From Tepidimonas ignava (GTDB taxonomy: Bacteria > Pseudomonadota > Gammaproteobacteria > Burkholderiales > Burkholderiaceae_C), in contig NZ_SMAH01000017.1 of the NCBI RefSeq assembly GCF_004342625.1, forward strand, positions 1 to 52,024: a DNA stretch of 52,024 nucleotides, written 5' to 3'. Shown here piece by piece: positions 25,562 to 49,244 of the stretch. The notes under the pieces are model-generated. The model made no database searches. It was not told the DNA's origin and worked only from the letters and a program-made list of their open reading frames with translations. Numbering within the stretch: position 1 is the stretch's first letter; each line of letters begins with the position of its first letter. Position numbers and translations under genes: made by a program.

Positions 25562-26230
25562 TCAGCTTGTGATCAACAGCCCGTGACGCTCAATAAACGA
25601 TACGACGTCAGCCAATCCCTGTTGGGTTTTGAGGTTGGTCATGACCCAAGGGCGACGATCGGGGTCGGGCCTCATGCGCGCGGTGTCTGCGGCCATCACT
25701 TCGAGGCTGGCGCCGACATGGGGAGCGAGGTCGATCTTGTTGATGACCAACAGATCGCTTTTGGTGATGCCTGGCCCGCCTTTGCGGGGGATTTTTTCAC
25801 CGGCCGCGACATCAATGACGTAGATGGTCAGGTCGGACAGCTCGGGGCTGAACGTGGCGGCCAGGTTATCACCGCCGCTTTCGACAAAGACAATGTCCGC
25901 GTCTGGAAACTGCCGCAACATGCGGTCGATGGCCTCGAGGTTGATGGAGCAGTCTTCCCGGATGGCCGTGTGGGGACAGCCGCCTGTTTCCACCCCAAGG
26001 ATGCGCTCGGGAGGCAATGCGCCGCTGATGGTGAGCAAGCGCTGGTCCTCTTTCGTGTAAATGTCGTTGGTGATGGCCACCAAGTCGTAGCGCTGGCGCA
26101 TGGTTTTGCACAGCATCTCCAGCAGCGTCGTTTTGCCCGAACCAACCGGTCCGCCGATGCCTACCCTCAGCGGTGGCAGAGGCTTGGTGCGTCCAGGAAT
26201 GGCGTGAAGAACCGAGGGTGCGGTGTTCAT
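25562..26230 (-). CDS. ureG: Urease accessory GTPase UreG
   Basis: 222 residues. P-loop [29 protein letters not shown], the nickel-binding [17 protein letters not shown] with the CPH motif, [16 protein letters not shown] and the NKIDL guanine-specificity motif. UreG hydrolyses GTP while nickel is delivered to urease with UreD, UreF and UreE. It overlaps ureF by ATGA and is the last gene of the leftward ureA-J-B-C-E-F-G unit. Confidence 0.98.
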
Positions 26231-26946
26231 GAGCGAAACAAGCGGCTGTATTGGGTTTCATGGCGTGCTGACAGGATGGCCAGCATTGGGGCGAAGCATT
26301 GGCGTTGCCCCGGTGGCTGCGAAAGGGCCACGTGCACGGCCGCGGGCAGCGCCGCACGCAACTGGGCCAGCAGCCGCTGGCCGGCGTTTTGTCCCAGGGG
26401 TACGGCTTTGACCGCGGCCTGGCAGGCCGCCTCACACCAGGCGAAGCCCGCAGCCAACAGGGCATGGGCTGTGGGGAGGGTGTTGGGTGTCAGGGTCGCC
26501 AGCGCCCACGCGTACGCCACGGGGTAGGTGGGCGGTTGCAGTGCGGCCGGCACCTCGTCCAACCCCGGATTGGGCAACGTGTGCGGCCTTAAGCCTTGCA
26601 ACCAGTGCAGCACCGCATGCCCCATTTGTTCGCTTTGCAAACGCAGCTCAGCGCTTTCCCGGGTGCGGCGTGTCCACGCGTTCAACGTCAGCAATGTTGT
26701 CCAGTCACGCGCGCGCCACGCGGGCAGTGCCTGCGCCACCACGGACAGATCAGCCCGGGCCTGGGTCAGGTGGAGCTGAGCCAGTAGCCACTGGGCCGCG
26801 CTGGCCTCGTCGTGCACCCGCCCGGCCTCGACGGCACTTTCCAGCCCTTCGGAGTATGAAAAACCACCCAGCGGCACAGCAGGCGAAGCGAGCCACAACA
26901 ACCCGAGCAGGGCCTGTGGATCACGCTCACCATCAGGGTTGGCCAT
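26227..26946 (-). CDS. ureF: Urease accessory protein UreF
   Basis: 239 residues from ATG 26946, which overlaps the end of ureE by 14 bp; ATG 26982 is a longer option. Family marks: [21 protein letters not shown] near the N-terminus (two parts), [30 protein letters not shown], and a C-terminal [15 protein letters not shown]. All-helical GTPase-activating partner of UreG in the UreDFG complex. Confidence 0.95.
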
Positions 26947-27484
26947 GGTGTGGGTGATCGTCGGTGGGGTGAACGTGTCCATCGTGGCGGTGATGCGCAG
27001 GTCCGCCGTAAGCACCGAACTCGGGCTCAAAGGGTTCTTCGACTTCCGTAACCGTCAGGTGCATCTGGCGTAACAGGTCGGCCAGCACATGGTCGCGCTC
27101 CAGCTTGAGATGGTCGGCGTGCAATTGCAGCGCGACATGGCGGTTGCCTAGGTGGTACGCGGCGCGCAGCAGGTCCAAGGGTGTGCCGTGCTCCGCGCAA
27201 GTCGTGACCTTGAGCAGCGGTTCGACCGCGGCGCGTACACACAGCAGGCCGCCATCGGTCAACACCAACACATCGCCGTCGCGCATGACGCTGCCGCGGG
27301 GCAGCAACACCGCAATGCGGCGTCCTTGGCTGTCACGCGCTTCGAAGCGGCTGCGCTGGCGCCACGTCCATTCGAGTTCCAGTACGGGTGCACGGGCCAA
27401 CAGCGTCCGGGCGAGCCCCGCGCCACCCGGTATCAGGCGGCTTGCCAGCAACGGCGGGTCAGCGGGGGCGGCTGCATGGTGCAT
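26933..27484 (-). CDS. ureE: Urease accessory nickel-binding chaperone UreE
   Basis: 183 residues. N-terminal peptide-binding domain with LELEWTWRQRSRFEARDSQG and VLLPRGSVMRDGDVL; C-terminal metal-binding domain with AYHLGNRHVALQLHADHLKL (two parts) and DHVLADLLRQM; and a histidine-rich tail [20 protein letters not shown] that should bind extra nickel. Starts 14 bp after ureC. The N-terminus is about ten residues longer than usual before the first strand. Confidence 0.95.
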   Translation of the reverse strand: MHHAAAPADPPLLASRLIPGGAGLARTLLARAPVLELEWTWRQRSRFEARDSQGRRIAVLLPRGSVMRDGDVLVLTDGGLLCVRAAVEPLLKVTTCAEHGTPLDLLRAAYHLGNRHVALQLHADHLKLERDHVLADLLRQMHLTVTEVEEPFEPEFGAYGGPAHHRHDGHVHPTDDHPHHGQP

Positions 27485-27498
27485 GGTGAGTGCATCCG

Positions 27499-29244
27499 TC
27501 AAAATAAAAAATAGCGCTGCGCCATGGGCAGCACGCTGGCCGCTTCGCACACCAACAACTCGCCGTCGGCGCGCACCGCATAGGTTTGTGGATCGATCTC
27601 CATGTGGGGCGTGTGGTCGTTGAGCACCATGTCGCGCTTGCCAATACGGCGGCAGCCCTGCACGGCGACCAGCGGTTTTTGCAAGCCGTAGCGCTGCCCA
27701 ACCCCGCTTTGCAGCGCTGCTTGGGACACGAACGTGAGCGCGCTGCGTTGCAGCGCCGCTCCGAAGGCGCCGAACATGGGCCGTGCATGGACGGGCTGCG
27801 GCGTGGGGATGGATGCGTTGGGGTCGCCCATCGCGGCCGCAACGATCATGCCGCCCTTGACGATGACCGAAGGCTTGACGCCGAAAAAGGCGGGTTTCCA
27901 CAGCACCAGATCAGCCCATTTGCCCACTTCGACCGAGCCGACCACGTGCGCCACACCGTGCGCGATGGCAGGGTTGATGGTGTATTTGGCGATGTAGCGC
28001 TTGATACGAAAGTTATCGTTGCGGTCATGGTGCTCGACGCCAGGTGGACGGTCCGGTGGCGGGGCCAGCCAGCCGCGTTGTACCTTCATCTTGTGGGCCG
28101 TTTGCCAGGTGCGGGTGATGACTTCACCCACCCGCCCCATGGCCTGGCTGTCGCTGCTCATGATGCTGATGGCGCCCAGGTCGTGCAGGATATCCTCAGC
28201 GGCAATCGTTTCCCTGCGGATACGGCTTTCGGCAAAGGCCAAATCCTCGGCGATCGAGGGATCGAGGTGGTGGCACACCATCAACATGTCCACATGCTCG
28301 TCCAGGGTGTTGACCGTGTAAGGGCGCGTGGGGTTGGTGGACGAGGGCAGCACGTGAGAGGCACCGACGATACGCAAGATGTCGGGCGCGTGCCCACCTC
28401 CCGCACCCTCGCAGTGGAAAGCGTGGATGGTGCGGCCGCGCATGGCCGCCAGCGAGTCCTCGACGAAGCCGCTCTCGTTCAGGGTGTCGGTGTGGATGGC
28501 GACTTGCGTGTCGGTAGCCTCGGCCACCGACAGACAAGCGTCAATGGCGGCGGGCGTGGAGCCCCAGTCTTCATGCAGTTTGAGTCCGATGGCGCCAGCC
28601 TCAATCTGTTCACGCAGGGCTTCGGGGCGGCTGCAGTTGCCTTTGCCCAGAAAACCAAGATTCATCGGGAAGGCTTCAGCCGCCTGCAGCATGCGTTCGA
28701 TGTTCCACGGGCCCGGTGTGCACGTGGTGGCGTTGGTGCCGGTCGCCGGGCCGGTGCCGCCGCCGGTCATCGTGGTGATGCCCGACATCAGCGCTTCTTC
28801 GATCTGTTGTGGGCAGATGAAGTGAATGTGGCTGTCGTAGCCGCCCGCGGTCACGATCATGCCCTCGCCCGCCAGCACTTCGGTGCCAGGGCCAATGACG
28901 ATATCGACGCCGGGCTGCGTGTCGGGATTGCCGGCTTTGCCAAGGGCGACGATACGGCCATCGCGCACGCCGATATCGGCTTTGACGATACCCCAGTGGT
29001 CGATGACCAGAGCGTTGGTGATGACCAAATCGACGGCGCCCGCAGCACGTGGGTGCTGGCTTTGGCCCATGCCATCGCGAATGGTCTTGCCGCCTCCGAA
29101 TTTGACCTCCTCGCCGTAGCCGCCAGCACGCAGCGTGTAGTCGTCCTCAACCTCGGCCCACAGGGATGTGTCGGCCAGACGGACGCGATCCCCGATCGTG
29201 GGGCCAAACATTTCGGCGTATGCACGCCGTGAGATCGTGACCAT
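27499..29244 (-). CDS. ureC: Urease alpha subunit UreC
   Basis: 581 residues from ATG 29244, slightly longer than the usual 567-573. All catalytic features are visible: [12 protein letters not shown], the carbamylated lysine in [37 protein letters not shown], the flap cysteine in MVCHHLD, and [11 protein letters not shown]. It holds the two nickel ions that hydrolyse urea to ammonia and carbamate. It begins 7 bp after ureB. Confidence 0.99.
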
Positions 29245-29251
29245 AGCCTGT

Positions 29252-29572
29252 TCAACCCTCCAGCTGATCCAGTGGCCCATTGGTCAAGCCACGAAATCCC
29301 CAGACGTGCCGCCTGCCGGCCAGCGCCACCAGCTCCACGGTGCGTTGCTGCCCGGGTTCAAAGCGTATGGCTGTGCCGCTGGCAATATTGAGCCGCATAC
29401 CGTGCGCTGCGGCGCGATCGAATTGCAGCGCAGCGTTGGTTTCGGCAAAGTGGTAGTGCGACCCTACCTGAATAGGGCGTTGCGCGGTGTTGTGCACCAC
29501 CAGCGTGCGCGTGACGCGCCCGGGGTTGAGCGGCAACTCATCGTTGACCAACAGGTATTCGCCAGGGATCAC
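29252..29572 (-). CDS. ureB: Urease beta subunit UreB
   Basis: 106 residues from a GTG at 29572, chosen because AAGGAG (29579-29584 on the minus strand) sits at ideal distance and because the family begins MIPGEY; an upstream GTG at 29620 would add 16 atypical residues. Core motif [18 protein letters not shown], then [21 protein letters not shown] and GFRGLTNG. Structural subunit of the (ABC)3 urease. Confidence 0.96.
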
Positions 29573-29655
29573 GATCGACTCCTTTGTGTTCGGGCAGGGC
29601 GCACCGGATTGATCCGGCACCGCGGCTCGGCGCTACAAGGGCACGGCGCGGAGCG

Positions 29656-30246
29656 TCAAACCAACGCCACGACGCTGGACACGCCCACGGCGCCAACCAT
29701 CGCGCCGGCGATGCGGGGTGCCCACGCATGGCTGCGTGGCAGCACGACACCGAGGCCGATCCCCACCCCGTGCAGCACCGCGGTGCTGAGCACCATGCCC
29801 AACAGCGCCGTGTGACCCGCCAGTTCATGGCCATGTGCGGCGCCGTGGAACCACGCGAACGCCGCCACCAGCCCCGCGGCCACGGCCTGCGGCACGGCCA
29901 CGCGCGCCGCGATCAGCAGCCCCAGCGTCAGCAGCGAGACCGCGATCATGGGCTCCACCGCCACTGTCGGCAGCCCCGCTTGGGCCGCCAGCGCGCCCAC
30001 CAACAACACGCTGGCGAACGCCAACGGCGCCACCCAACGCTGCGTGCTGACCAGCGCACTCCAGATGCCGACCGCGAGCATGGCGGCCAAGTGGTCCATG
30101 CCCGTCAAGGGGTGGAGCAGGCCGGCCAGCCATCCGTGGTGTACACCCCCGTCCGTGCCGGTGTGGGACATGGCTGGGAGTGTCCACACGGCTGCGGTCA
30201 GTCCACAAACGATGAGGCGAAGCAATCGGCGCTGGCGGTCAGGCAT
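29656..30246 (-). CDS. ureJ: HupE/UreJ family membrane protein
   Basis: 196 residues. A signal-like N-terminus, then about six membrane segments, with the family motifs HPLTGMDHLAAMLAVG and AAFAWFHGAAHGHELAG, whose histidines and aspartate are candidates for metal binding. HupE/UreJ proteins are nickel (or cobalt) permeases. Placed between ureA and ureB as in other betaproteobacteria, it probably supplies nickel for urease. The C-terminus is hydrophobic to the end. Confidence 0.9.
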   Translation of the reverse strand: MPDRQRRLLRLIVCGLTAAVWTLPAMSHTGTDGGVHHGWLAGLLHPLTGMDHLAAMLAVGIWSALVSTQRWVAPLAFASVLLVGALAAQAGLPTVAVEPMIAVSLLTLGLLIAARVAVPQAVAAGLVAAFAWFHGAAHGHELAGHTALLGMVLSTAVLHGVGIGLGVVLPRSHAWAPRIAGAMVGAVGVSSVVALV

Positions 30247-30316
30247 GGTCAACTCCTGGTTGTCGAACGGTCGCGAAACAACGTGCCCCGTGTTGGTGCC
30301 ATCAGCACGAGGCTCT

Positions 30317-30619
30317 CTACGTAATCGGTTGGTGCACGGTCACCAATTTGGTGCCATCAGGGAAAGTGGCCTCGACCTGAATGTCGTGAATCATGTCGGC
30401 CACACCGTCCATCACATCGTCGCGGGTCAGGACGTGGCGGCCCTCACTCATCAGTTGCGCCACCGTTTTGCCTTCACGGGCTCCTTCCAGCACATAGGCA
30501 CTGATGAGGGCGACGGCCTCTGGGTAATTCAGCTTCAATCCGCGTGCGCGCCGACGCTCGGCCAGCAAGGCCGCGGTGAACAGCAACAGCTTGTCTTTCT
30601 CGCGTGGTGACAGGTCCAT
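30317..30619 (-). CDS. ureA: Urease gamma subunit UreA
   Basis: 100 residues, the exact usual length, with [61 protein letters not shown] and the terminal VTVHQPI. It is the first gene of the leftward urease operon. Upstream ureD is missing from the expected place; the kinase gene starts divergently 68 bp away. Confidence 0.98.
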
Positions 30620-30623
30620 GCTG

Positions 30624-30651
30624 TTGCTTAAAGCAAGCGTTGTGCCAACGC
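30624..30651. promoter_or_regulatory. Two adjacent palindromes in the ureA-kinase divergent region
   Basis: TTGCTT-A-AAGCAA (30624-30636) and GCGTTG-TGC-CAACGC (30637-30651) are perfect inverted repeats lying back to back in the 68-bp gap between ureA and the sensor kinase gene. Either could be an operator, for example for the regulator encoded at 33719-34729, controlling both directions. They are too short to be ordinary terminators and have no T-run. Confidence 0.5.
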
Positions 30652-30687
30652 GCATCGATGGCACGAAAGCTGCAAGCCTGCACAGGC

Positions 30688-33600
30688 ATGAACCACACTG
30701 CCGACCAGGCCGACCCGGGACCTGCACCGAAAGCGCCAATCACACCGGTGCGGCGTGCATACCACCGCTGGGTGGCCAGTGAGACGCTGGAAGACTACGC
30801 GCTGCGTTACACGCCGCAGCGCTTTCGGCGTTGGTCAGCCGGTCGTGTCGCCAACATGGCGCTTGGGGTGTCATCGTTCCTGGTGCTGGAGGCGCTGGGC
30901 GCGACGTTGATGCTCCAGTTTGGCGTGCTCAATGCGGCGGCGGCCATCGTGGCGGCGGGTGTCTTGATTGCGCTGGTGGGGTGGCCCATCAGCGTGGCCG
31001 CGGCACGCCACGGGGTGGACATGGATTTGTTGACCCGTGGTGCGGGCTTTGGGTACCTTGGCTCGACACTGACCTCGCTGATCTACGCCACCTTTACGTT
31101 CATCTTTTTTGCGTTGGAAGCGGCAGTGATGGCTTACGCGCTGCAGCTCGCCCTTGGCATACCTTCCTCTTGGGGCTACCTGATCAGCGCGCTGCTGGTC
31201 ATTCCGCTGGTCACGCACGGGGTGACTTTGATTGGCCGATTTCAGCGCTGGACGCAGCCGCTTTGGTTGATGTTGATGGTTCTTCCCTGGCTTGCGGTGT
31301 GGCTGAACGACCCCGGCTCGATGGCCCGTTGGTTGCACCAGGAGGGTGCGCCCCAGGCACCCAAGACGTTCGATTGGCACCTGTTTGGTGCCGCGCTGAC
31401 GGTTGCACTGGCGTTGGTGACCCAAATGGGCGAGCAAGCCGACTATTTGCGCTTCATGCCCCAGCCGCAGCCCGGCCGTCGCGCACGGTGGTGGCTGGCT
31501 GTGGCCGTGGGCGGTCCGGGTTGGGTGGTGCCGGGCGTGCTCAAGATGCTGGCGGGGGCTTGGCTGGCGCACCTGGCGCTGGAGCACGGTGTGTCGGCGG
31601 CGCAGGCAGTTGACCCGAACCAAATGTACCTCGTGGCGTACGGGCACATGTTGCCGGCGGGCTGGGCGGTGGCGGCGACTGCGCTGTTTGTTGTGGTGTC
31701 CCAGCTCAAGATCAACGTCACCAATGCCTACGCGGGCTCGTTGGCATGGAGCAATTTTTTCTCGCGCTTGACGCACCACCACCCTGGCCGGGTGGTGTGG
31801 GTGGTGTTCAACACAGCGCTGGCGTGGCTGCTGATGGAGCTTAACGTCTTTCATGCCCTGGGGGCGGTGCTCGGGCTGTACGCGCATGTGGCGTTGGCAT
31901 GGCTGGTGGCGGTGGTGGCTGACCTGGTGGTGCTCAAGCCTCTGGGGTGGTCGCCCCGGGCGATCGAGTTCCGTCGTGCCCATCTGATGGACATCAACCC
32001 GGTGGGGGTGGGGGCGATGCTGGGGGCGTCGCTGTTGGGGGTCGCGGCGCACTTCGGATGGCTGGGCTCTTGGGCGCAGGCGTTTTCGGCGCTGGTGGCG
32101 ATGTCGGCGGCATTCGGGTTGACGCTGTTGCTGGGGGCCGTCACGCGGGGACGGTATCACTTGGCGCGTCGCGCTGACGCCGCTGTGGTGGCCACGGATA
32201 AAGCCGATGCCGAAGGTGCGCCCTTGCAGTTGCGCTGTGTGGTGTGCCAGGGCAGCTACGAGCGGCCCGACATGGCCCGTTGCCCGGCTTACGGCGGCTG
32301 GATCTGCTCGCTGTGCTGCACACTCGACGCGCGTTGTGGGGACGCCTGCAAACCGCACGCCCGCTTGAGCACCCAGCTGCGCGCCTGGTTGCGGCGATGG
32401 TTGCCGCGGCGGCTGCAGCCGTACGTCGATGCCGGGTTGATCCACTACCTGGTGGCGTTGTCGGTCGCAGCGTTGGTGCTGGCTGCCCTGCTTGGTTTGC
32501 TGGCGCGTCAGGATGCGCAGCGTGCCGTGTCCGACCCTGTCGCGTTGGCGTGGGTCACCGAGGTCTACCGCAAGGTTTACGTCGTGCTGCTCACACTCGG
32601 GGCGGTGTTGATCTGGTGGCTGGTGCTGACGCAGCGGGCACGCCAAGTGGCGCAACAAGAAACCCATCGCTACACGCGGCTGCTGTTGCGTGAGATTGAG
32701 GCACATCGCCGCACCGATGCGCAGCTGCAGCGTGCCCGTGAGGCGGCCGAAGCCGCCCGTCGCAGTGCCGAGCGTGCCAACGATGCCAAGACACGCTACC
32801 TGTACGCCATCAGCCACGAATTGCGCACACCGTTGGGGGCGATCATGCTGTACGTGCAGGCCTTGCAGCGGGACGCCAGCCTCAGCGCCCGCCAGGCCCA
32901 TGCGCTGGCCATGATTCAGCGCGGCGGTCAGCACGTGCTGTCGCTCATCGAAGGCACGCTGGATTTGGCGCGCATCGAAGCTGGGCGAGTCACGTTGGAC
33001 GTGCGTCCAACCGACTTGCGGGCCTTGGTGCAAGACGTGGTGGCGTGGCTGACCCCCCAGGCGCAGGCCAAAGGGTTGCGCGTGGCCCTGGAAGGCCCCA
33101 GCCGCTGGCCAAGCGCCGTGCGTTGCGACGGGCCTCGACTGCGGCAGGTGTTGCTCAACTTGCTGGGCAACGCCGTGCGCTACACCGAGACGGGACACAT
33201 CACGCTGCGGATGGCTTACGTTTGTGATGTGGCCACCGTGGAGGTCATCGACACCGGTCCAGGCATCAGTGCGGCCGAGCTGGAGCGGGTGTTCGAGCCC
33301 TTTGCGCGCGGCGCCGCGGGCAGCCAACATGCGGGGGCGGGCCTAGGGTTGACGATAGCCCGCATGTTGACTCAGCTCATGGGTGGCGAGCTACGCGTGC
33401 ACAGCGAGCTGGGGCAGGGCACGACGTTTGTTCTGCGTTTGTACTTACCCGAAGTGGCGGCGTTGGCGTCGGACCAGCCTCCGGCCGCGCTGCCCGCCCC
33501 GGTCAGCGCCGGCGCGCCACCAGCGCCGGTGGCTGCGTTGCGTCTATGGCCGCCCGAGGTGCGGGAGCGGTTGCTGCAATGCGTACGGCTTGGGTATCCG

Positions 33601-33744
33601 CGCGGGGTGCAACGGGTGCTGGACGACGCAACCGGTTTGCCTGCGGCCGAGCAATTGCGCCAGGCCGCGCAGGCGCTGGATCTCAAGACCCTGGAGCGAT
33701 GGCTGACGGAGGCGTGCGATGCGACCCCATGTGCTGCAACCTGA
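30688..33744 (+). CDS. Transporter-like sensor histidine kinase: NCS1/cytosine-permease domain, Cys cluster, HisKA-HATPase
   Basis: 1018 residues from ATG 30688. Residues about 30-500 form a polytopic domain of cytosine/purine permease (NCS1, CodB-like) type, about 12 hydrophobic segments, with [20 protein letters not shown]. Then comes a cytoplasmic cysteine cluster, C517, C520, C532, C540, C543, C544, C550, C554 (motifs [19 protein letters not shown]), a zinc- or cofactor-site candidate. Two more helices follow (about 585-607, 628-650), a coiled coil, HisKA with His710 in [14 protein letters not shown], and HATPase with [20 protein letters not shown] and [13 protein letters not shown]-terminal helical extension ends the protein. 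The lipid-embedded permease part may sense, or carry, urea or a nucleobase. The partner regulator starts before its stop. Family members of this type are known from genome annotation; function here is inferred from context. Confidence 0.85.
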
Positions 33745-34729
33745 GAGCAGTCCTTTGGTTTTGATCGTCGATGATGTGCCCGAGAGCCTTGCGGCCCTGC
33801 ACGACATGTTGGATGAGACGGGCTACACCGTGTTGGTGGCCAGCGATGGCCCCACCGCCTTGGTGCGCGCCCGTCAAGCCCGGCCCGATGTGATTTTGCT
33901 GGACGCACTCATGCCAGGCATGGACGGCTTCGAGGTGGCGCGCCGGCTCAAAGCTGACGAGCGCACCGCATCCATCCCGATTTTGTTCATGACCGGCTTG
34001 ACGGAGACGGAGCACCTGATCGAGGGACTGGCGGCCGGCGCCGTCGATTACGTGACCAAGCCGGTCAAGCCGCAGGAGGTGATCGCGCGCATCGGGGTGC
34101 ACCTGCGCACCTCGCGGCAAATTCGCCAGGGCTCGATCGTGCAGCAGCAGGCGCGCAACGCGCTCGATGCTTTCGGGTTCGCCACCATCACCGTGCGGAT
34201 GCGCGACGGGCGGCTGCTGTGGCAGACGCCACTGGCACGCGAGCTGCTGTGGCGCTATTGCGGCACCGAAGCGCCCGTGACGCCAGAGCCGGTGCTGCAG
34301 TGGCTGCGCCGCCACGGCCCGGAGCTGTGCCGCCAAGAGTCCCCGGTCGAGCCGCCGCGTTTGACGTTGACGCAAGGCACGCGTCGGTTGACCTTGCGGT
34401 TGTATCGCTCGGTGGATGATCCAGCCGACACCAGCGCCGACAGCGAGGGAGGGCATTGGTTGATTGTCATGCAGGAAACGTCGGACACCAGTGTGCTGGA
34501 GGCGCTGATGCAGACATTCGGTCTGACCGCCCGGGAGGCCGAGGTGTTGTATTGGGTGGTGCAAGGCAAGATCAACCGCGACATTGCCGACATCGTCGGC
34601 GCCAGCCCCGCCACCGTCAAAAAGCACTTGGAGCGTATTCACGCCAAGCTGGGTGTCGAGACACGCACGGCGGCGGCCGCGTTGGCGCTGCAACGTGTGC
34701 CACAACTGCGTCCCAACGCGGCGGCCTGA
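33719..34729 (+). CDS. Response regulator, REC domain plus LuxR-type helix-turn-helix
   Basis: 336 residues from ATG 33719, which overlaps the kinase gene by 26 bp; GGAGG precedes it. Receiver domain 1-130: IVDDVPESL, phosphoacceptor Asp62 in ILLDALMPGMDG, lysine in YVTKPVKPQE. A middle region of about 120 residues (TITVRMRDGRLLWQTPLAREL onward in parts) looks like a degenerate PAS-like domain; the C-terminus (about 270-325) is a LuxR-type DNA-binding domain, FGLTAREAEVLYWVVQGK and SPATVKKHLERIHAKLGV. It probably answers the transporter-like kinase and controls urtA and/or the ureA and kinase promoters, all within reach of nearby palindromes. Confidence 0.88.
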   Translation: MRPHVLQPESSPLVLIVDDVPESLAALHDMLDETGYTVLVASDGPTALVRARQARPDVILLDALMPGMDGFEVARRLKADERTASIPILFMTGLTETEHLIEGLAAGAVDYVTKPVKPQEVIARIGVHLRTSRQIRQGSIVQQQARNALDAFGFATITVRMRDGRLLWQTPLARELLWRYCGTEAPVTPEPVLQWLRRHGPELCRQESPVEPPRLTLTQGTRRLTLRLYRSVDDPADTSADSEGGHWLIVMQETSDTSVLEALMQTFGLTAREAEVLYWVVQGKINRDIADIVGASPATVKKHLERIHAKLGVETRTAAAALALQRVPQLRPNAAA

Positions 34730-34804: not shown

Positions 34805-34829
34805 GGGTGGCCGCTGAGCCGGGCCACCC
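34805..34829 (+). promoter_or_regulatory. GC-rich hairpin in the urtA leader region
   Basis: GGGTGGCC and GGCCACCC pair over 8 bp with a 9-base loop, about 45 bp before the urtA start. It is terminator- or attenuator-like without a T-run, and could separate the two-component genes from the transporter operon or stabilise the urtA mRNA. Confidence 0.4.
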
Positions 34830-34875
34830 CATGCCTAGGTTCGTTCCACAAAGTCGTCCACTGCGGAGAACCACC

Positions 34876-36147
34876 ATGATGCAACGTCGCTCCACCCTGA
34901 AGATTTTGTCGGCGGCGGCCGCTATGGCCACCTTCGGTCCACTACCGTCGCGTGCCCAATCGGGTCCGATCAAAGTGGGCATTCTCCACTCGCTGTCGGG
35001 CACGATGGCGATTTCGGAAACGGTGCTCAAAGATATCGCCCTGATGACCATCGATGAAATCAATGCCGCGGGCGGCGTGCTGGGCCGCAAGGTCGAGCCG
35101 GTGGTGGTCGATCCGGCGTCGAACTGGCCCCTGTTTGCCGAGAAAGCCCGTCAGCTGCTCACCCAGGATAAAGTGGCGGCGGTGTTTGGCTGCTGGACAT
35201 CGGTGAGTCGTAAATCGGTGCTGCCGGTGTTTGAGGAGCTCAACGGCCTGCTGTTTTACCCGGTGCAGTACGAAGGCGAAGAGTTGTCCAAAAACGTCTT
35301 CTACACCGGTGCCGCGCCCAACCAACAGGCCATACCGGCAGTGGAATATCTGATGAGTAAAGACGGCGGCTCGGCCAAGCGTTTCGTGCTGCTGGGGACT
35401 GACTACGTGTATCCGCGCACCACCAACAAGATCCTGCGCGCCTTCCTCAAGTCCAAGGGAATCCCCGAGTCCGACATCATGGAGGAATACACACCGTTCG
35501 GACACAGCGACTACCAGACCATCATCGGTAAGATCAAGCAGTTTGCCGCCGCCGGTAAAAAGACCTGTGTGATTTCGACCATCAACGGCGACTCTAACGT
35601 GCCGTTTTATAAAGAGCTTGGCAACCAGGGGCTCAAGGCTACGGATGTGCCTGTGGTCGCGTTCAGTGTCGGCGAGGAAGAGCTGCGCGGCGTGGACACC
35701 AAGCCACTGGTGGGGCATCTGGCGGCGTGGAACTACTTCATGTCGATCAAAAACCCGACCAACGACGCTTTCATTAAAAAATGGGCGGCGTACGCCAAGG
35801 CTAAAAACATTCCTGGCCACAAGGACAAGCCGTTGACCAACGACCCGATGGAGGCGACGTACATCGGTATTCACATGTGGAAACAGGCCGTCGAAAAAGC
35901 CAAGAGCATCGACACGGACCGCGTGATCGAAGCCATGGCTGGTCAAACCTTCGATGCGCCCAGCGGCTTCAAGGTCAAAATGGACGAGCGCAACCACCAT
36001 TTGCACAAACCGGTCTTTATTGGCGAGGTGCGTGCGGATGGCCAGTTCAACGTGGTCTGGAAGACCAAGGGTCCGATCCGTGCACAACCGTGGAGCCCCT
36101 TCATCCCGGGCAATGAGAAGAAAAAAGACGTCCCGGAAAAGGCTTGA
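34876..36147 (+). CDS. urtA: Urea ABC transporter substrate-binding protein UrtA
   Basis: 423 residues from ATG 34876 with GGAG 8 bp upstream. The N-terminus RRSTLKILSAAAAMATF is a signal peptide with a twin-arginine look (RRSTLK). The mature protein begins with IKVGILHSLSGTMAISETVL and carries FGCWTSVSRKSVLPVFEELN (two parts), YPVQYEGEE and ATYIGIHMWKQAVEKA, typical of UrtA, which binds urea in the periplasm. It is encoded first in the urtABCDE operon, downstream of the sensor pair. Confidence 0.97.
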   Translation: MMQRRSTLKILSAAAAMATFGPLPSRAQSGPIKVGILHSLSGTMAISETVLKDIALMTIDEINAAGGVLGRKVEPVVVDPASNWPLFAEKARQLLTQDKVAAVFGCWTSVSRKSVLPVFEELNGLLFYPVQYEGEELSKNVFYTGAAPNQQAIPAVEYLMSKDGGSAKRFVLLGTDYVYPRTTNKILRAFLKSKGIPESDIMEEYTPFGHSDYQTIIGKIKQFAAAGKKTCVISTINGDSNVPFYKELGNQGLKATDVPVVAFSVGEEELRGVDTKPLVGHLAAWNYFMSIKNPTNDAFIKKWAAYAKAKNIPGHKDKPLTNDPMEATYIGIHMWKQAVEKAKSIDTDRVIEAMAGQTFDAPSGFKVKMDERNHHLHKPVFIGEVRADGQFNVVWKTKGPIRAQPWSPFIPGNEKKKDVPEKA

Positions 36148-36176
36148 GGCTGTCGACCCTTCGCGGTGAACTGGCG

Positions 36177-37778
36177 ATGCAAGGCCTCTGTAAACGTTGG
36201 TGGGCGTTGTGTGTGTTGCTGTGCGTGCCGGCGCTGGCCCGCGCGCTGAGCGGCGCAGACGCGCTGGCGGTGGTGGAAGGCGAGGTCGACGAGCGTGTGC
36301 AGGCCATCACACGGCTGGCCGCGCAGCCCGACGCGCAGGCTGCTGCGCTGTTGCGCGCGCTCCAAGAGGAGCGCGTGCGGGTGCACGATGGCAAGGTATG
36401 GATTGAACAACCCGACGGGGCCATCGTACGTGCCGAGACGGGCCAGCCCGACACCCCTCCGCCCGAGGCAGAGGCACCGCTGTTGAACAACCGGTTGCGG
36501 GCCGCGCTATCGCTGGCCCAGGCCGGTTTGGCGTTGCAGTCCAACGATCCGGATCGGCAACGCAACGCGGCGGCGACCTTGCGCGACGCCATGCTGGACG
36601 ACCCCGACGCCCAGTTGGTGCCACTGTTGCAAGCGGCGCTGGCGCCACAGCGCGACCCGGCGCTGAACAGCCGCGCCGCCACGATGCTTCAACAAGCGCT
36701 GGCGGCTGTGCAGTTGGGTGCCGCTGATCCTGCCCAGCGGCGCTGGGCCGCCGAGGTGCTGGGGGCCAGTGGACAGCGGCGGGCGCTGGCGTTGCTGCAG
36801 CAACACGCGGACGATGCCGACGCGAGCGTGCGCCATGCGTTGCAAACCGCCCAACAACGTCTGCAAAGGACGCTGGCGTTGGCTGAAGTCAGTGCCAACC
36901 TGTTCGCCGGTGTCAGTTTAGGGTCGGTCCTGCTCCTCGCCGCCCTTGGGCTGGCGGTCACGTACGGGTTGATGGGCGTGATCAACATGGCGCACGGCGA
37001 GTTGATCATGGTCGGTGCGTACACCACCTACGTGGTGCAGCGGCTGTTTGCCCAATGGGCGCCGCAATGGTTTGACTGGTACCTGGTAGCAGCCCTTCCC
37101 GCTGCCTTTGGGGTGGCGGCCTTGGTGGGGGCGGCCATTGAGCGGGGGGTGATTCGTCACCTGTACGGACGCCCGCTGGAAACGCTGCTGGCAACCTGGG
37201 GCCTGAGTCTGATTCTGATGCAAGCGGTACGCAGTCTGTTTGGGGCGCAAAACGTGACGGTGGAAAACCCCGCATGGCTTAGCGGCGCGGTGGAACTGTG
37301 GGGGGGCATGGCGCTGCCGTGGAACCGTCTGGTCATTGTCGGGTTTGCGGTGGCGGTGCTGCTCGGCGTAGGTTGGGTGCTGCAGCGCACGCGGCTGGGG
37401 CTGTTCGTACGCGCGGTCACGCAGAACCGGCCCATGGCAGCGTGCATGGGCGTTCCCACCGGGCGCGTCGACGCCTATGCGTTCGCCTTCGGCTCGGGCG
37501 TGGCAGGCTTGGCCGGCGTAGCGCTGAGCCAAATCGGCAACGTCGGCCCCGATCTCGGCCAAGCGTACATCATCGATTCGTTCATGGTTGTGGTGGTGGG
37601 CGGTGTAGGACAGTTGACGGGCACCGTGGCCGCCGCGTTCGGGTTGGGTTTGCTCAATAAATGGCTTGAGGGTTGGGTGGGCGCCGTGTTGGCCAAAATC
37701 GCTGTGTTGGTGCTCATTGTGATCTTTATTCAGAAGCGTCCACAAGGGTTGTTTGCTTTGAAGGGGCGGCAAGCATGA
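36177..37778 (+). CDS. urtB: Urea ABC transporter permease UrtB
   Basis: 533 residues from ATG 36177 (a TTG at 36144 overlapping the urtA stop is less likely because the signal peptide starts at the ATG). As usual for UrtB, a signal peptide (WWALCVLLCVPALARA) is followed by a periplasmic helical domain of about 200 residues, then the LivH-like permease domain with GVINMAHGELIMVGAY, RTRLGLFVRAVTQNR, VAGLAGVALSQIGNVGPDLG and VVVVGGVGQLTG. Confidence 0.96.
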   Translation: MQGLCKRWWALCVLLCVPALARALSGADALAVVEGEVDERVQAITRLAAQPDAQAAALLRALQEERVRVHDGKVWIEQPDGAIVRAETGQPDTPPPEAEAPLLNNRLRAALSLAQAGLALQSNDPDRQRNAAATLRDAMLDDPDAQLVPLLQAALAPQRDPALNSRAATMLQQALAAVQLGAADPAQRRWAAEVLGASGQRRALALLQQHADDADASVRHALQTAQQRLQRTLALAEVSANLFAGVSLGSVLLLAALGLAVTYGLMGVINMAHGELIMVGAYTTYVVQRLFAQWAPQWFDWYLVAALPAAFGVAALVGAAIERGVIRHLYGRPLETLLATWGLSLILMQAVRSLFGAQNVTVENPAWLSGAVELWGGMALPWNRLVIVGFAVAVLLGVGWVLQRTRLGLFVRAVTQNRPMAACMGVPTGRVDAYAFAFGSGVAGLAGVALSQIGNVGPDLGQAYIIDSFMVVVVGGVGQLTGTVAAAFGLGLLNKWLEGWVGAVLAKIAVLVLIVIFIQKRPQGLFALKGRQA

Positions 37779-38923
37779 GTGCGGAGTCGTGCGGCCATGC
37801 AACCATGGCGGGACCGGCGCTGGGTGTTCCGGGCGGCCGCCGTTGGGGGCGCGACGCGGTGCTGGTCGGATGGGTTGTCCTTGTGGCCACCGTGGTGGCC
37901 GCTGCACTCAACCTGCTGGTGCCGCCCGACAGCGTGTGGCATGTCAGCGACCACTGGATCACCCTGTTGGGCAAGATCATGTGCTACGCCATCTGTGCAT
38001 TGGCGCTGGACATGATCTGGGGCTACAGCGGCATTCTCAGTCTGGGCCACGGGTTGTTTTTCGCGCTCGGTGGCTATGTGATGGGGATGTACCTCATGCG
38101 CCAGATCGGCACCGATGGTAACTACGGCAGTGAGCTGCCCGATTTCATGGTCTTCTTGGACTGGAAGGAGCTTCCGTGGCACTGGGCGCTGTCGGATAGC
38201 TTTGCGGCGACGCTGCTGTTGATCGTTTTGGTGCCTGGGTTGTTGGCGTGGGTGTTTGGCTACTTTGCATTTCGATCACGCATCCAAGGGGTGTATTTTT
38301 CGATTATCACGCAGGCGTTGACGTTTGCTGCGATGCTGTTGTTCTACCGTAATGAAACTGGTTTTGGTGGTAACAACGGTTTCACCGATTTTAAGCGCAT
38401 TGTTGGCTTTCCGATCACCGCGTCGGAAACACGCGTGGCGTTGTTGGCGCTCACTGGACTGGCGCTGGTGGGCTGCTATGCTGTGTCGCGTTGGTTGGTC
38501 GGCAGCAAATTCGGGCGCGTGTTGCAGGCGATTCGCGATGCCGAGAGCCGTGTGATGTTTTGCGGCTACGATCCACTGTCGTACAAACTGGCCGTGTGGA
38601 CACTGTCGGCCATCATGTGCGCGGTGGCCGGGGCTTTGTACGTGCCTCAGGTCGGCATCATCAATCCCCGGGAAATGAGCCCCGCGGCCAGCATTGAAAT
38701 CGCGGTGTGGGTGGCGGTGGGGGGGCGCGGTACGCTTGTCGGGCCGCTTGTGGGTGCGTTTGCCGTCAACGGGGCCAAAAGCTGGCTGACGGTACTGGCG
38801 CCCGAAGTGTGGCTGTATGTGCTTGGGGCGCTTTTCGTCGCCGTCACGCTGTGGATGCCGGACGGTTTGGTTGGGTTGGCGCGTCGCTGGGCTCAGCGGC
38901 TGCTGGGGGGGCGGCAGCCATGA
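37775..38923 (+). CDS. urtC: Urea ABC transporter permease UrtC
   Basis: 382 residues from ATG 37775, overlapping the urtB stop as ATGA. LivM-like permease with about nine hydrophobic segments and the motifs DMIWGYSGILSLGHGLFFALGG, FFYRNETGFGGNNGFTDFKR region, SKFGRVLQAIRDAESRVMFCG and GIINPREMSPAASIEIAVWVA (each read in parts). Partner of UrtB in the membrane. GC content across urtABCDE and ureABCEFG looks lower than in the flagellar cluster. Confidence 0.96.
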   Translation: MSAESCGHATMAGPALGVPGGRRWGRDAVLVGWVVLVATVVAAALNLLVPPDSVWHVSDHWITLLGKIMCYAICALALDMIWGYSGILSLGHGLFFALGGYVMGMYLMRQIGTDGNYGSELPDFMVFLDWKELPWHWALSDSFAATLLLIVLVPGLLAWVFGYFAFRSRIQGVYFSIITQALTFAAMLLFYRNETGFGGNNGFTDFKRIVGFPITASETRVALLALTGLALVGCYAVSRWLVGSKFGRVLQAIRDAESRVMFCGYDPLSYKLAVWTLSAIMCAVAGALYVPQVGIINPREMSPAASIEIAVWVAVGGRGTLVGPLVGAFAVNGAKSWLTVLAPEVWLYVLGALFVAVTLWMPDGLVGLARRWAQRLLGGRQP

Positions 38924-39792
38924 CACCCGACTTGATGCAAAGCGGAGCCGAGCGTTGGGCACGGGCTCGGCAGCGCGCTGCGGTCCATGGTGGTAGCGGC
39001 GGGCGGGCGGCGCCGTTGGCCCATCCGGTGGCGCCCGGTGCCATCGATACCAGCCATGGGTGCATCCTCTACGTGGACGATGTGCATGTCAGCTTCGACG
39101 GCTACAAGGCGCTCAACGGCCTGTGTCTGAACATCGCGCTGGGCGAGCTGCGCGCGGTCATCGGTCCCAACGGAGCGGGCAAAACGACCATGCTCGACGT
39201 CATCACGGGCCGCACCAAACCCGACCGCGGCAGTGTGTACCTCGGCACCACAATCGACCTGTTGCGCTGGCGAGAGCCGCAAATTGCAGCGATGGGGGTG
39301 GGGCGCAAATTTCAAAAGCCCACGGTGTTTGAGCGCCTGACCGTGTGGGAGAACCTGGAGCTGGCCTTGGCGGCCGACAAGAGGGTGCGCTCGAGCATCA
39401 CGTTTCGACTGTCGGCGCCGCAGCGTGCGCGTTTGGTCGAACTGCTGGAACTGATCCATCTGGAGGCCCACGCGCAGCGTCCGGCCGGGGCGTTGAGCCA
39501 CGGCCAAAAACAATGGTTGGAAATTGGCATGCTGTTGGCCCAGCAGCCAAGGTTGTTGTTGCTGGACGAGCCGGTGGCCGGCATGACGGACGATGAAACC
39601 GAGCGCACCGCGCAATTGCTGCGGACCCTCAAAGGTCAGCACACGCTGGTGGTGGTGGAGCACGACATGGCGTTTGTACGCGCGATCGCCGACCAAGTCA
39701 CTGTGCTTTGTGACGGCGCCGTGTTGACCGAGGGTGGATTTGAGCAGGTGGCTCGTGATCCACGTGTCATCGAGGTCTATTTGGGGCGTTGA
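38920..39792 (+). CDS. urtD: Urea ABC transporter ATP-binding protein UrtD
   Basis: 290 residues from ATG 38920, overlapping the urtC stop. LivG-like ATPase: Walker A GPNGAGKTT, VGRKFQKPTVFERLTVWENLEL, a diverged signature LSHGQKQWLEIGMLLAQ and Walker B LLLLDEPVAGM. The first 45 residues before LYVDDVHVSFDGYKAL are extra and not conserved in the family, so a later start is possible. Confidence 0.95.
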   Translation: MTPDLMQSGAERWARARQRAAVHGGSGGRAAPLAHPVAPGAIDTSHGCILYVDDVHVSFDGYKALNGLCLNIALGELRAVIGPNGAGKTTMLDVITGRTKPDRGSVYLGTTIDLLRWREPQIAAMGVGRKFQKPTVFERLTVWENLELALAADKRVRSSITFRLSAPQRARLVELLELIHLEAHAQRPAGALSHGQKQWLEIGMLLAQQPRLLLLDEPVAGMTDDETERTAQLLRTLKGQHTLVVVEHDMAFVRAIADQVTVLCDGAVLTEGGFEQVARDPRVIEVYLGR

Positions 39793-39798
39793 ACAAGC

Positions 39799-40503
39799 AT
39801 GCTGCAGATCGATGCTCTCCACCAAGCTTACGGTGGCTCACACATCCTGCGCGGCATATCACTGGAGGCGCGGCCCGGTGAGATCACGGTCATCCTGGGG
39901 CGCAACGGGGTGGGCAAGACGACCCTGTTGAAGGCGCTGATGGGCTTGGTGCCGGTGCGCAGTGGGCGGGTGGTGTGGGAAGGGGTGGACTTGACGCACC
40001 GCCCGGTTCACGAGCGCTCCCGCCGCGGCATCGGGTATGTGCCCCAGGGGCGCGAAATTTTTGCGCGCTTGACGGTGCGCGAAAACCTACTGATGGGGTT
40101 GGCCAGCCAACCGGCCAACGTGGCCGTGCCGCCCAAGCTGTACGAGTTGTTCCCGGTGCTGGCCGAAATGCAGCAGCGCCGCGGAGGGGATTTGTCTGGT
40201 GGCCAGCAGCAGCAGTTGGCCATTGCGCGCGCGTTGGCGGCCCGTCCACGCTTGCTGGTGCTGGATGAACCGACCGAGGGCATCCAGCCCAACATCATCC
40301 AAGCCATTGGGCGTGTGTTGCGTCAGCTCGCCCGTGAGGGGTTGGACGGTCAGCCGATGGCGATTTTGCTGGTGGAGCAGTATTACGATTTTGCCCGTGA
40401 GCTGGCCGACCGCTACGTGGTGCTCGATCGGGGCACCGTGGTGGCCAGCGGCAGTGGTGAGGAGATGGAGGTGCACGGCGTGCGCACCATGGTGGCGCTG
40501 TAG
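39799..40503 (+). CDS. urtE: Urea ABC transporter ATP-binding protein UrtE
   Basis: 234 residues. LivF-like ATPase with Walker A GRNGVGKTT, GIGYVPQGREIFARLTVREN, signature LSGGQQQQLAIARAL and Walker B LLVLDEPTEG. It starts 6 bp after urtD and ends 9 bp before the ureD stop, which is transcribed from the other side. Confidence 0.96.
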   Translation: MLQIDALHQAYGGSHILRGISLEARPGEITVILGRNGVGKTTLLKALMGLVPVRSGRVVWEGVDLTHRPVHERSRRGIGYVPQGREIFARLTVRENLLMGLASQPANVAVPPKLYELFPVLAEMQQRRGGDLSGGQQQQLAIARALAARPRLLVLDEPTEGIQPNIIQAIGRVLRQLAREGLDGQPMAILLVEQYYDFARELADRYVVLDRGTVVASGSGEEMEVHGVRTMVAL

Positions 40504-40512
40504 CGTGGGCGT

Positions 40513-41343
40513 TCAAACGCGCCACAAGCGCAGCGCAGGGGCAGGCAAGCCCCAAGCGGCCGTGCGCAGGGCTGCCCACAAACGCTGCCACAGCGCCATC
40601 AGCGGCTCGACCATCGGCGCCAGGCCGCGCACCACCAGCACGCGCTCGTGGGGGCAGGTGGCGCCGGCTGCCACCGGCTCCAACGCGGTGGGCAGCAACG
40701 CCCGCACGGTGGCCAGCAGGTGCTCGCGCCGCTCCACGGTCCAGGGGCTGCCACTGGCCAGCACCAGCGTGGCAAGGGCGCGGTGCCCAGCAAGACCCGG
40801 CCCTCCGTTCAGCAGCCAGTCGTCACCTGCGTGCAGCCGACCCTCGTCCAACCAGATGTCATCCACCGCCATGCTCTGGTGCAACACGCCGCTGCTGAAA
40901 GGCTGTTTCGCCTGCGGCAGGCCCAGCGCGCACACCTCCCACGCCAACACTTCGGCGTCAGCCGCGAGATCCGCGTGCCAGCAATTGCTGGCCACGCAAC
41001 CGGGGTAGGCGATGGTTTCTTGCGGCAGCCATTCCAGCCGCGCACCTGGGGCCAAGCGCGCACGCACCGTTTGGGCCGCGGCTTGGCCGTCGCAGCGGTA
41101 AAAACGCGTGGCTCCCGGGGTGGTCAGCAAGGCGTGGGCGCCGCGGCCCACCGTGATGGCCACCTCCAACGTATCGCCGCCCACAATGCCGCCCGGTGGG
41201 TGGATCAGCACCGTGTGGCACACCGAAGTGCCCTCGGGGTACAACGTGCGCAGCACGCGCAGCGGGCCGTCGTGTTCAAACGCCAGCGTGGTGCCGTGTT
41301 CAAGCTGGTCGTAGCGTAACTGCAAGGTTCCTCGCCAACCCAT
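40513..41343 (-). CDS. ureD: Urease accessory protein UreD
   Basis: 276 residues. N-terminal LQLRYDQLEHGTTLAFEHDG, HPPGGIVGGDTLEVAI, TTPGATRFYR and the LEWLPQETIAYPG motif identify UreD, the urease-binding scaffold of the UreDFG maturation complex. It lies 9.9 kb from ureA, on the same strand, beyond the inserted kinase-urt block, whereas it normally sits immediately before ureA. Its end faces urtE; maeB precedes it by 6 bp, so maeB and ureD could share a transcript. Confidence 0.95.
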   Translation of the reverse strand: MGWRGTLQLRYDQLEHGTTLAFEHDGPLRVLRTLYPEGTSVCHTVLIHPPGGIVGGDTLEVAITVGRGAHALLTTPGATRFYRCDGQAAAQTVRARLAPGARLEWLPQETIAYPGCVASNCWHADLAADAEVLAWEVCALGLPQAKQPFSSGVLHQSMAVDDIWLDEGRLHAGDDWLLNGGPGLAGHRALATLVLASGSPWTVERREHLLATVRALLPTALEPVAAGATCPHERVLVVRGLAPMVEPLMALWQRLWAALRTAAWGLPAPALRLWRV

Positions 41344-41349
41344 GCACAC

Positions 41350-48103: not shown

Positions 48104-48162
48104 GCACCTAGCAAGGGCTGCTTGTCTCCCTTCGTGTTTCCCTCTGATGCTTGGCGATCTTT

Positions 48163-48197
48163 TGCTATGCTGTTGCTACCAACTGCTACCGGTAGCA
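48163..48197 (+). repeat. Helically phased TGCTA repeats before the integrase gene
   Basis: TGCTA occurs at 48163, 48174 and 48184, spaced 11 and 10 bp, and as its inverse TAGCA at 48193, the last two forming the palindrome TGCTACCGGTAGCA. The array ends 6 bp before the integrase ATG. Phased short repeats are typical of arm-type integrase or excisionase binding sites and of autoregulatory operators. Confidence 0.5.
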
Positions 48198-48203
48198 CTC
48201 AAG

Positions 48204-49244
48204 ATGGCATCGATCATCCAGCACAGGGGCCGCTGGCGTGCGCAGGTGCGGCGCAAGGGCTTTCCAGTTTACACGAAGAGCTTTGACACCAAAGCGCAGG
48301 CCGAGAAGTGGGCGCGGCAGATCGAGGCAGACATCGACCGCGGCGTGCTACCAGGGGCCGCTGCGGTAGCAGCAAAGCGCTGCTACACGGTCGCCGACCT
48401 GATCGACGACTACCGCAAGCTGCGGGAGCAGTCGCGGCCAGTGCTGGATACGTCCACAGAGCACTACAACCTGCGCCGCCTGGCCGAGTGTCTTGGCGAT
48501 CTTGACGCCACCAGGCTACGGCCTGATGAGCTGGTGGCTTACGCGCAGATGAGAGCAGACCAGGGCGCTGGACCGTACACGGTCAACATGGAGGTGTCCA
48601 AGCTCGGCACCGTCATGCGCATGGTGGCCAGCATCAAGCACATGACGCTGCCGGACGTGGTGCAGCAGGCGCGGCCGCTGCTGGCGCACCTGGGGCTGAT
48701 CGGCGGCGGCGGCAGGCGCGAGCGCAGGCCCACCGATGATGAGCTCGACCGCATCATCGCGCACATGCACGATACCTACGGCCAGGTGTGGGCCGATGCG
48801 GTGCGCTTTGCGGTGGGCACGGCGATGCGCCGTGGCGAGATCGTGCGCATCCGCTGGGACGACCTGGACGCCGCCAGGCGGCTGGTGCTGGTGCGGGATC
48901 GCAAAGACCCGCGCCAGAAGGCCGGCAACGATCAGTGGGTGCCGCTGCTGGCCGACACGGCGATGGGCGACATGTGGGCTTTGGTGCAGCGCCAGCCGCG
49001 CGTCGATCCGCGCATCTTCCCCATCGGCGACTCGACGCTCTCAAAGTACTTCACGTGGACATGCCGGGCTCTGAGCATTCCGGATCTGCACTTCCACGAC
49101 CTGCGCCACCATGCGATCAGCATGCTGTTCGAGCGCGGCTTTCGCATCGAGCAGGTGGCGCTGGTGTCCGGCCACAAGTCGTGGCAGCACCTGAAGCGCT
49201 ACACGAACCTGCGGCCGGAGGATTTGCATCGAGGTCCGGCTTGA
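48204..49244 (+). CDS. int: Tyrosine recombinase/integrase
   Basis: 346 residues from ATG 48204. N-terminal arm/SAM-like part starts ASIIQHRGRWRAQVRRKGF; the catalytic domain shows the conserved Arg in VGTAMRRGEIVRIRW, the HxxR box in FHDLRHHAISMLFERGF, the later His in SGHKSWQHLKRY and catalytic Tyr in KRYTNL. It should catalyse integration of the element at the tRNA-Arg gene. It is convergent with the following gene; stops abut at 49244/49245. Confidence 0.94.
   Translation: MASIIQHRGRWRAQVRRKGFPVYTKSFDTKAQAEKWARQIEADIDRGVLPGAAAVAAKRCYTVADLIDDYRKLREQSRPVLDTSTEHYNLRRLAECLGDLDATRLRPDELVAYAQMRADQGAGPYTVNMEVSKLGTVMRMVASIKHMTLPDVVQQARPLLAHLGLIGGGGRRERRPTDDELDRIIAHMHDTYGQVWADAVRFAVGTAMRRGEIVRIRWDDLDAARRLVLVRDRKDPRQKAGNDQWVPLLADTAMGDMWALVQRQPRVDPRIFPIGDSTLSKYFTWTCRALSIPDLHFHDLRHHAISMLFERGFRIEQVALVSGHKSWQHLKRYTNLRPEDLHRGPA

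Follow-up and report, generated by a model that had tools for sequence, protein, structure and literature searches.

CbrA, CrbS and RpuS are SLC5-STAC histidine kinases, in which a transporter domain of the LeuT fold is joined to a histidine kinase, and Kuenenia stuttgartiensis carries an Amt-histidine kinase in which a nitrogen-source transporter fold has been turned into a kinase sensor (PMC5764959). Here we present a kinase of comparable plan, encoded in a 52,024-nucleotide stretch of Tepidimonas ignava DNA (the window; contig NZ_SMAH01000017.1, assembly GCF_004342625.1). Its membrane domain is NCS1-like by fold, as in CodB and Mhp1, and its gene sits between divergent urease genes and a regulator-urtABCDE-ureD array. 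No description of an NCS1-cysteine-kinase protein class was found in the literature searched. PMC13296017 labels a hybrid kinase, possibly a homologue, and a LuxR regulator adjacent to urt genes, and makes no remark on the sensor.

The domain layout, fold, conservation, gene neighbourhoods and operator described below were computed directly. From them we infer the ligand, phosphotransfer, DNA binding and zinc of what is probably an NCS1-permease-derived urea/short-amide sensor kinase, whose LuxR-type regulator would switch on urtABCDE from the operator. Urea would occupy the permease-like pocket, and a shape change would be relayed by way of a zinc-like module and an additional pair of helices to the kinase, leading to its autophosphorylation at H710. 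Because the window kinase is missing an internal receiver domain, the phosphate would go straight to the response regulator (33719-34729), which would bind TACGYCANNTGRCGTA and turn on urtABCDE. By analogy, the best account is that the protein works like the CbrA class, with an NCS1-fold membrane domain.

Results

Domain organization and fold

An earlier reading of this DNA, the original prediction, had described a 1018-residue permease-cysteine-two-helix-HisKA-HATPase protein between urease and the regulator-urt genes, and this layout was confirmed:

30688..33744, plus strand: NCS1-type sensor histidine kinase, 1018 amino acids (ORF, or open reading frame, translation; domain and structure searches)
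30742..32157, plus strand: NCS1 (CodB/Mhp1-like) membrane domain, about residues 19-490 (structure)
32236..32349, plus strand: eight-cysteine module, residues 517-554, probably a two-zinc unit
32449..32631, plus strand: two extra transmembrane helices, about residues 588-606 and 630-648 (hydropathy)
32788..32985, plus strand: HisKA, residues 701-766, with phospho-acceptor H710 by motif (Pfam)
33127..33447, plus strand: HATPase_c, residues 814-920 (Pfam)

Hydropathy predicts helices up to about residue 488 and then only those at 588-606 and 630-648; the sole Pfam matches are HisKA and HATPase. Structure comparison placed the membrane domain closest to NCS1, with cytosine and hydantoin transporters at the top, and not closest to SLC5, in support of the nucleobase-type permease that had been proposed. 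The profile PF02133 gave no match in the window kinase, 26 relatives or three other stand-alone relatives; a distant relative, L211, matched it at 3.6e-9, and hhalign gave a probability of 87.6 to NCS1 proteins. Pfam scans of the window kinase and the 26 relatives revealed no linker domain, STAC not being compared directly.

The fold of residues ~19-490 is shared with CodB and Mhp1, from which the window kinase differs in its C-terminal cysteine module, its kinase and its Na2 region, where K341-I342 aligns with S312-T313 of Mhp1, which we take to be the hydroxyl pair at the Na2 site; no hydroxyl pair is thus present. Judged by these positions, the membrane domain does not belong with the sodium-coupled NCS1 transporters. 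CbrA, too, has a lysine in its Na2 region (K196, PMC13022988), as the window kinase does by alignment (K341). Unlike CbrA, CrbS and RpuS, with their SLC5 membrane domain, the window kinase has an NCS1-like one, a linker made of the eight-cysteine module and two helices, a LuxR-type partner regulator and a urea/formamide context. The Kuenenia protein differs in having the Amt/Rh fold and ammonium in place of the NCS1 fold and a urea/amide context.

Pfam shows no receiver domain after the HATPase of the window kinase, and two congeners of 1020 amino acids (L090, L091) likewise lack it by sequence; all three retain a short C-terminal piece (33448-33744 in the window) despite this loss. Near relatives from beyond the window's genus group, where untruncated, have 1116-1224 amino acids and a receiver domain after the HATPase. 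This domain was confirmed by Pfam in L012 and L223 and is present by sequence in L024, a record named Tepidimonas fonticaldi.

Stand-alone permeases and other fusions

Stand-alone homologues that bear the annotation 'allantoin permease' or 'cytosine permease' (L214, L216, L217, L221, L223) are 42-50% identical to the kinase over the membrane domain, carry part or all of the cysteine tail and share the urease/formamidase cluster context; unlike the kinase, they have no output domain and no glutamate E68 in the first transmembrane helix (TM1). A 535-amino-acid homologue heads a urease cluster on an Acinetobacter plasmid, others adjoin fmdA in Moraxella and Tsukamurella, and in Methylovirgula as well as in G951 (L223) one stands beside the kinase and formamidase, in the usual place of the ATP-binding cassette (ABC) transporter. 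At the Streptomyces and Arthrobacter copies no urease/formamidase-type neighbour was seen. With the Acinetobacter protein as query, 18 of 369 genomes of the class matched, three with stand-alone-sized frames. In a Klebsiella pneumoniae urease cluster a gene annotated 'cytosine permease' (L216:8956-10563) directly follows ureG, as a stand-alone homologue also does in G965 (L224); the Klebsiella protein is a candidate urea permease.

A joint alignment of 84 fused and 14 stand-alone rows (L229b, a fused protein truncated where its fetched stretch ends, is not counted among the latter) separates the two types at TM1, where the fused rows have F64/E68. E68 occurs in all 83 fused rows with a residue there versus 0/14 stand-alone rows. 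The pocket is common to both, as is position 341, Lys in 84/84 fused rows and Lys or Arg in 14/14 stand-alone ones. In a quick tree containing very long rows, nine stand-alone permeases nested inside the fused set; with the longest rows dropped and the fused rows thinned, a branch with support 97 split 48 fused from 11 stand-alone proteins.

These features bear on whether the protein is a true transceptor, whose permease part would double as a transporter of urea or amides, possibly proton-coupled, with signalling that follows transport. The pocket and K341 positions shared with stand-alone homologues favour this, as does CbrA, which has a lysine in its Na2 site and both transports histidine and signals (PMC13022988). 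TM1, however, looks as if altered for a non-transport role in the fused rows, and transport by the stand-alone proteins is itself only presumed; we consider a transceptor somewhat unlikely.

The sensor module is not confined to one kinase core, since L208, L209, L225 and L227 carry it on others. At L208 and L209, beside fmdA, that core has an HELRNP motif and no receiver. A separate protein of 1225 amino acids (L226:6852-10526, G831 C3) has the module fused to PAS-GGDEF-EAL and hence to an output through cyclic-di-GMP; its fetched stretch yielded no gene for urea or formamide. In G001 the kinase-regulator pair is immediately followed by an NCS1 gene (L200:11580-12914), set aside as probably a coincidence: it is CytX-like and lies among thiamine-type genes, all named from sequence.

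Gene neighbourhoods

The kinase and the adjoining response regulator form a two-component gene pair (Pfam, neighbourhoods), flanked as follows:

25562..26230, minus strand: ureG
26227..27030, minus strand: ureF
26933..27901, minus strand: ureE (ORF as listed, true start later)
27499..29280, minus strand: ureC
29252..29620, minus strand: ureB
29656..30252, minus strand: ureJ/hupE
30317..30739, minus strand: ureA (ORF as listed; gamma-subunit domain from residue 41), divergent from the kinase gene
33719..34729, plus strand: response regulator, receiver 14-125, LuxR-type DNA-binding domain 269-323
34807..36147, plus strand: urtA, urea-binding protein (TIGR03407)
36144..37778, plus strand: urtB (TIGR03409)
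37673..38923, plus strand: urtC (ORF as listed, true start later; TIGR03408)
38707..39792, plus strand: urtD (ORF as listed, true start later; TIGR03411)
39799..40503, plus strand: urtE (TIGR03410)
40513..41349, minus strand: ureD

Each of urtABCDE exceeds its NCBIfam cut-off. The UrtB ORF (36144-37778) has ~250 extra residues N-terminal to the conserved domain, and a phage-type integrase gene lies downstream of the urea locus (48147-49244).

The source genome (2.71 Mb, 32 contigs) has one place matching the whole kinase. Homologues of residues 1-690 occur in 169 of 299 family genomes, four of these matches being weak. Among phylum genomes sampled, 56/398 have a homologue by the family profile, which also matches 527 plasmid records, 342 of them Klebsiella. 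Among the genome-contig matches listed, the one highest in identity is a Tepidimonas metagenome-assembled genome fragment (83%).

The near loci are the top 80 among at least 584 and so no random sample; ureA is divergent within 2.5 kb of the kinase in 71 of the 75 with enough upstream DNA. The regulator follows the kinase in all 70 with enough downstream DNA, in support of a dedicated regulator. In the two near loci inspected with full flanks (L012, L069), the ORFs between regulator and urtA are unrelated.

Distant loci were 40 from the phylum search, after exclusion of near-clade places, same-genus duplicates, fragments and G657, and every one has urea or formamide genes. At 31 there is a divergent amide-type urtABCDE-like transporter, its urtA ~38-45% identical, together with the formamidase gene fmdA; the other nine have true urt and/or ure genes within the fetched stretch, although one of these, L183, has only a urtA 7.7 kb off plus weak urt-like matches. 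Sinorhizobium meliloti 1021 has a homologue (L189) on its pSymB, and PMC2651895 likens the ABC genes smb21707 and smb20602-20605 of S. meliloti, which may be the L189 genes, to urea/short-chain amide systems. The urea neighbourhood, whose lack of conservation had been named beforehand as grounds for refutation, is conserved, with one revision: the context is urea or formamide/short amides, not urea alone. For this reason the ligand class is likely small amides, with urea in the near clade.

When 83 fused rows are placed on a tree (32 labelled urea, 42 amide and 9 without a label), at least five switches of label are needed (bootstrap 5-5), and within residues 22-499 a single position (280 V/I) separates the urea from the amide set at 80%. 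One sensor domain serves both contexts, which is consistent with a small-amide ligand and also with a shared product. That product, ammonia, is common to urease and formamidase, and the kinase might report it or the nitrogen state rather than the amide, as its nearly unchanged sensor in both kinds of cluster would allow. We judge this improbable: the 40 distant loci are tied to urea/amide genes, whereas a general ammonia sensor should also lie by other nitrogen genes (a context not searched systematically), and a permease fold points to a small organic solute as what is bound.

A conserved operator

Dyads in 35 gaps between urtA and the kinase gene yielded the consensus TACGYCANNTGRCGTA, that is, half-sites TACGYCA and TGRCGTA two nucleotides apart. 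The window has one exact copy, between regulator and urtA, which is also the sole exact copy in the genome:

34740..34755, strand not assigned: predicted palindromic operator TACGCCATCTGGCGTA upstream of urtA (dyad-derived pattern search)

With up to three mismatches the window has 4 matches versus 4.1 in shuffles, so that the exact copy alone is distinctive. The source genome has two further sites with one mismatch, which lie in or beside ORFs.

Across 124 loci (2.31 Mb), allowing one mismatch, 56 matches fell in 53 loci, 55 of them within 450 bp upstream of urtA, fmdA, the kinase gene or ureA and the remaining one at a contig end. The reversed pattern matched twice, neither time upstream of those genes. 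The operator stays with urtA even at loci where a long distance separates urtA and kinase (L012, L015, L062, L087, L192). Allowing two mismatches, it precedes 34/36 urea-type and 25/34 amide-type urtA genes (reversed control 0/70). In other lineages it stands before the amide ABC transporter, formamidase or kinase gene, and in two loci in the ureA-kinase gap, and the regulator would act on these targets there. A dyad search over the ureA-kinase gaps as a group revealed no clear palindrome.

Over whole genomes the count of the exact near-clade form is weak by itself (80/299 versus 73/299 reversed). Scoring the four weak kinase matches as negative, it was present in 72/165 kinase-positive versus 8/134 kinase-negative family genomes (Fisher p 2e-14, only indicative since the genomes are related), and the reversed control showed no link (44/165 versus 29/134, p 0.35). 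Of 42 near-clade-form sites inspected (50 stretches, eight being repeats), 39 have urtA within 400 bp; of the rest, G246 showed no urt gene, the G048 site is at a contig end, and G205 has urtE and ureD only.

Six of the eight kinase-negative operator genomes keep a full-length regulator homologue (45-66% identity), so the operator follows the regulator; the other two genomes are 93% and 74% complete. The regulator lies beside ureA, at the usual place of the kinase-regulator pair, in G062, G174 and G252, and between urtA and ureA in G179 and G257. At L307, L308, L309, L275 and L276 the operator and a full-length regulator stand beside ureA/urtA with no NCS1 kinase found, and these regulators are candidate orphans or partners of a different kinase.

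The cysteine module

The window kinase has cysteines at 517, 520, 532, 540, 543, 544, 550 and 554. The motif occurs in all 111 near proteins extracted (101 distinct) and at 43/44 distant loci; the 44th, L162, carries it in the joint alignment, where all eight cysteines are retained in 84/84 fused rows. Loss in relatives, named beforehand as the result that would speak against a metal site, was therefore not seen among fused proteins. The 14 stand-alone rows have all eight in two, five in one, a CxxC/CxxC core in six, one in two and none in three. Modelled alone (65 amino acids, 73 rows; predicted local distance difference test 76.9), the module forms four strands followed by helices, and Foldseek matches it best, though weakly at E 0.11 or worse, to RING and ADD domains; sequence matches were non-significant or short C2H2 stretches. 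It is probably a two-zinc treble-clef-like unit.

Urease is a nickel enzyme, and the module might itself be the sensor, of zinc, nickel or redox state, given that its eight cysteines are invariant regardless of output domain. This is quite improbable, for the module is retained in formamidase-linked members, several stand-alone permeases carry the whole or its core, and the predicted fold weakly resembles structural RING/ADD/PHD units. Zinc binding, which the original prediction had offered as one option, remains plausible from conservation and the model, but because part or all of the module also ends several stand-alone permeases, a structural RING/treble-clef-like unit is more likely than the redox or metal reporter suggested with it.

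Discussion

That the kinase senses a nucleobase, hydantoin or other ureide, with the urea genes downstream of that pathway, is very unlikely, for although cytosine and hydantoin transporters are the best fold matches, its recurring neighbours are formamidase or urease and not ureide genes. The original prediction had offered urea or a nucleobase as signal; urea stands, within the small-amide class, while no nucleobase genes were seen at four annotated kinase loci, no systematic search being made.

Several observations weigh against a urea/short-amide sensor kinase controlling urt. Its ligand assignment is inferential. NCS1 was not found by PDB and Pfam profile searches with the permease family, whereas structure comparison did find it. 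Only 24/60 near loci have urtA within 8 kb downstream of the kinase; urease is therefore the constant near-clade neighbour, and urt frequently lies at some other site. The window has no good copy of the operator ahead of ureA, which leaves direct urease control there unsupported. The 35 gaps that gave the consensus are among the 124 loci tested, 9/34 amide-type urtA genes have no site at two mismatches, and some genomes have operator and regulator with no kinase found.

More broadly, and tentatively, there may be an unrecognised NCS1-fold urea/formamide family of stand-alone permeases, including the Klebsiella post-ureG gene, of which one branch would have gained the TM1 glutamate, stopped transporting and become a portable sensory module on several kinases and a GGDEF-EAL protein, while the TACGYCANNTGRCGTA regulator-operator system would control urea/amide uptake across Pseudomonadota. 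The data suggest a role as urea or amide transporters for some of the 'allantoin permeases' and 'cytosine permeases' encoded in urease and formamidase clusters.

In soil, water and hosts alike, urea uptake and urease are points at which nitrogen enters, and we are aware of no membrane receptor in bacteria that recognises urea. The window kinase is a candidate for one; its target operon and operator are defined, and it has stand-alone counterparts, from which the one-residue signature E68 parts the fused proteins; the change from transporter to receptor is therefore directly testable. If true, this reading would extend the nutrient sensors that derive from transporters by a new type.
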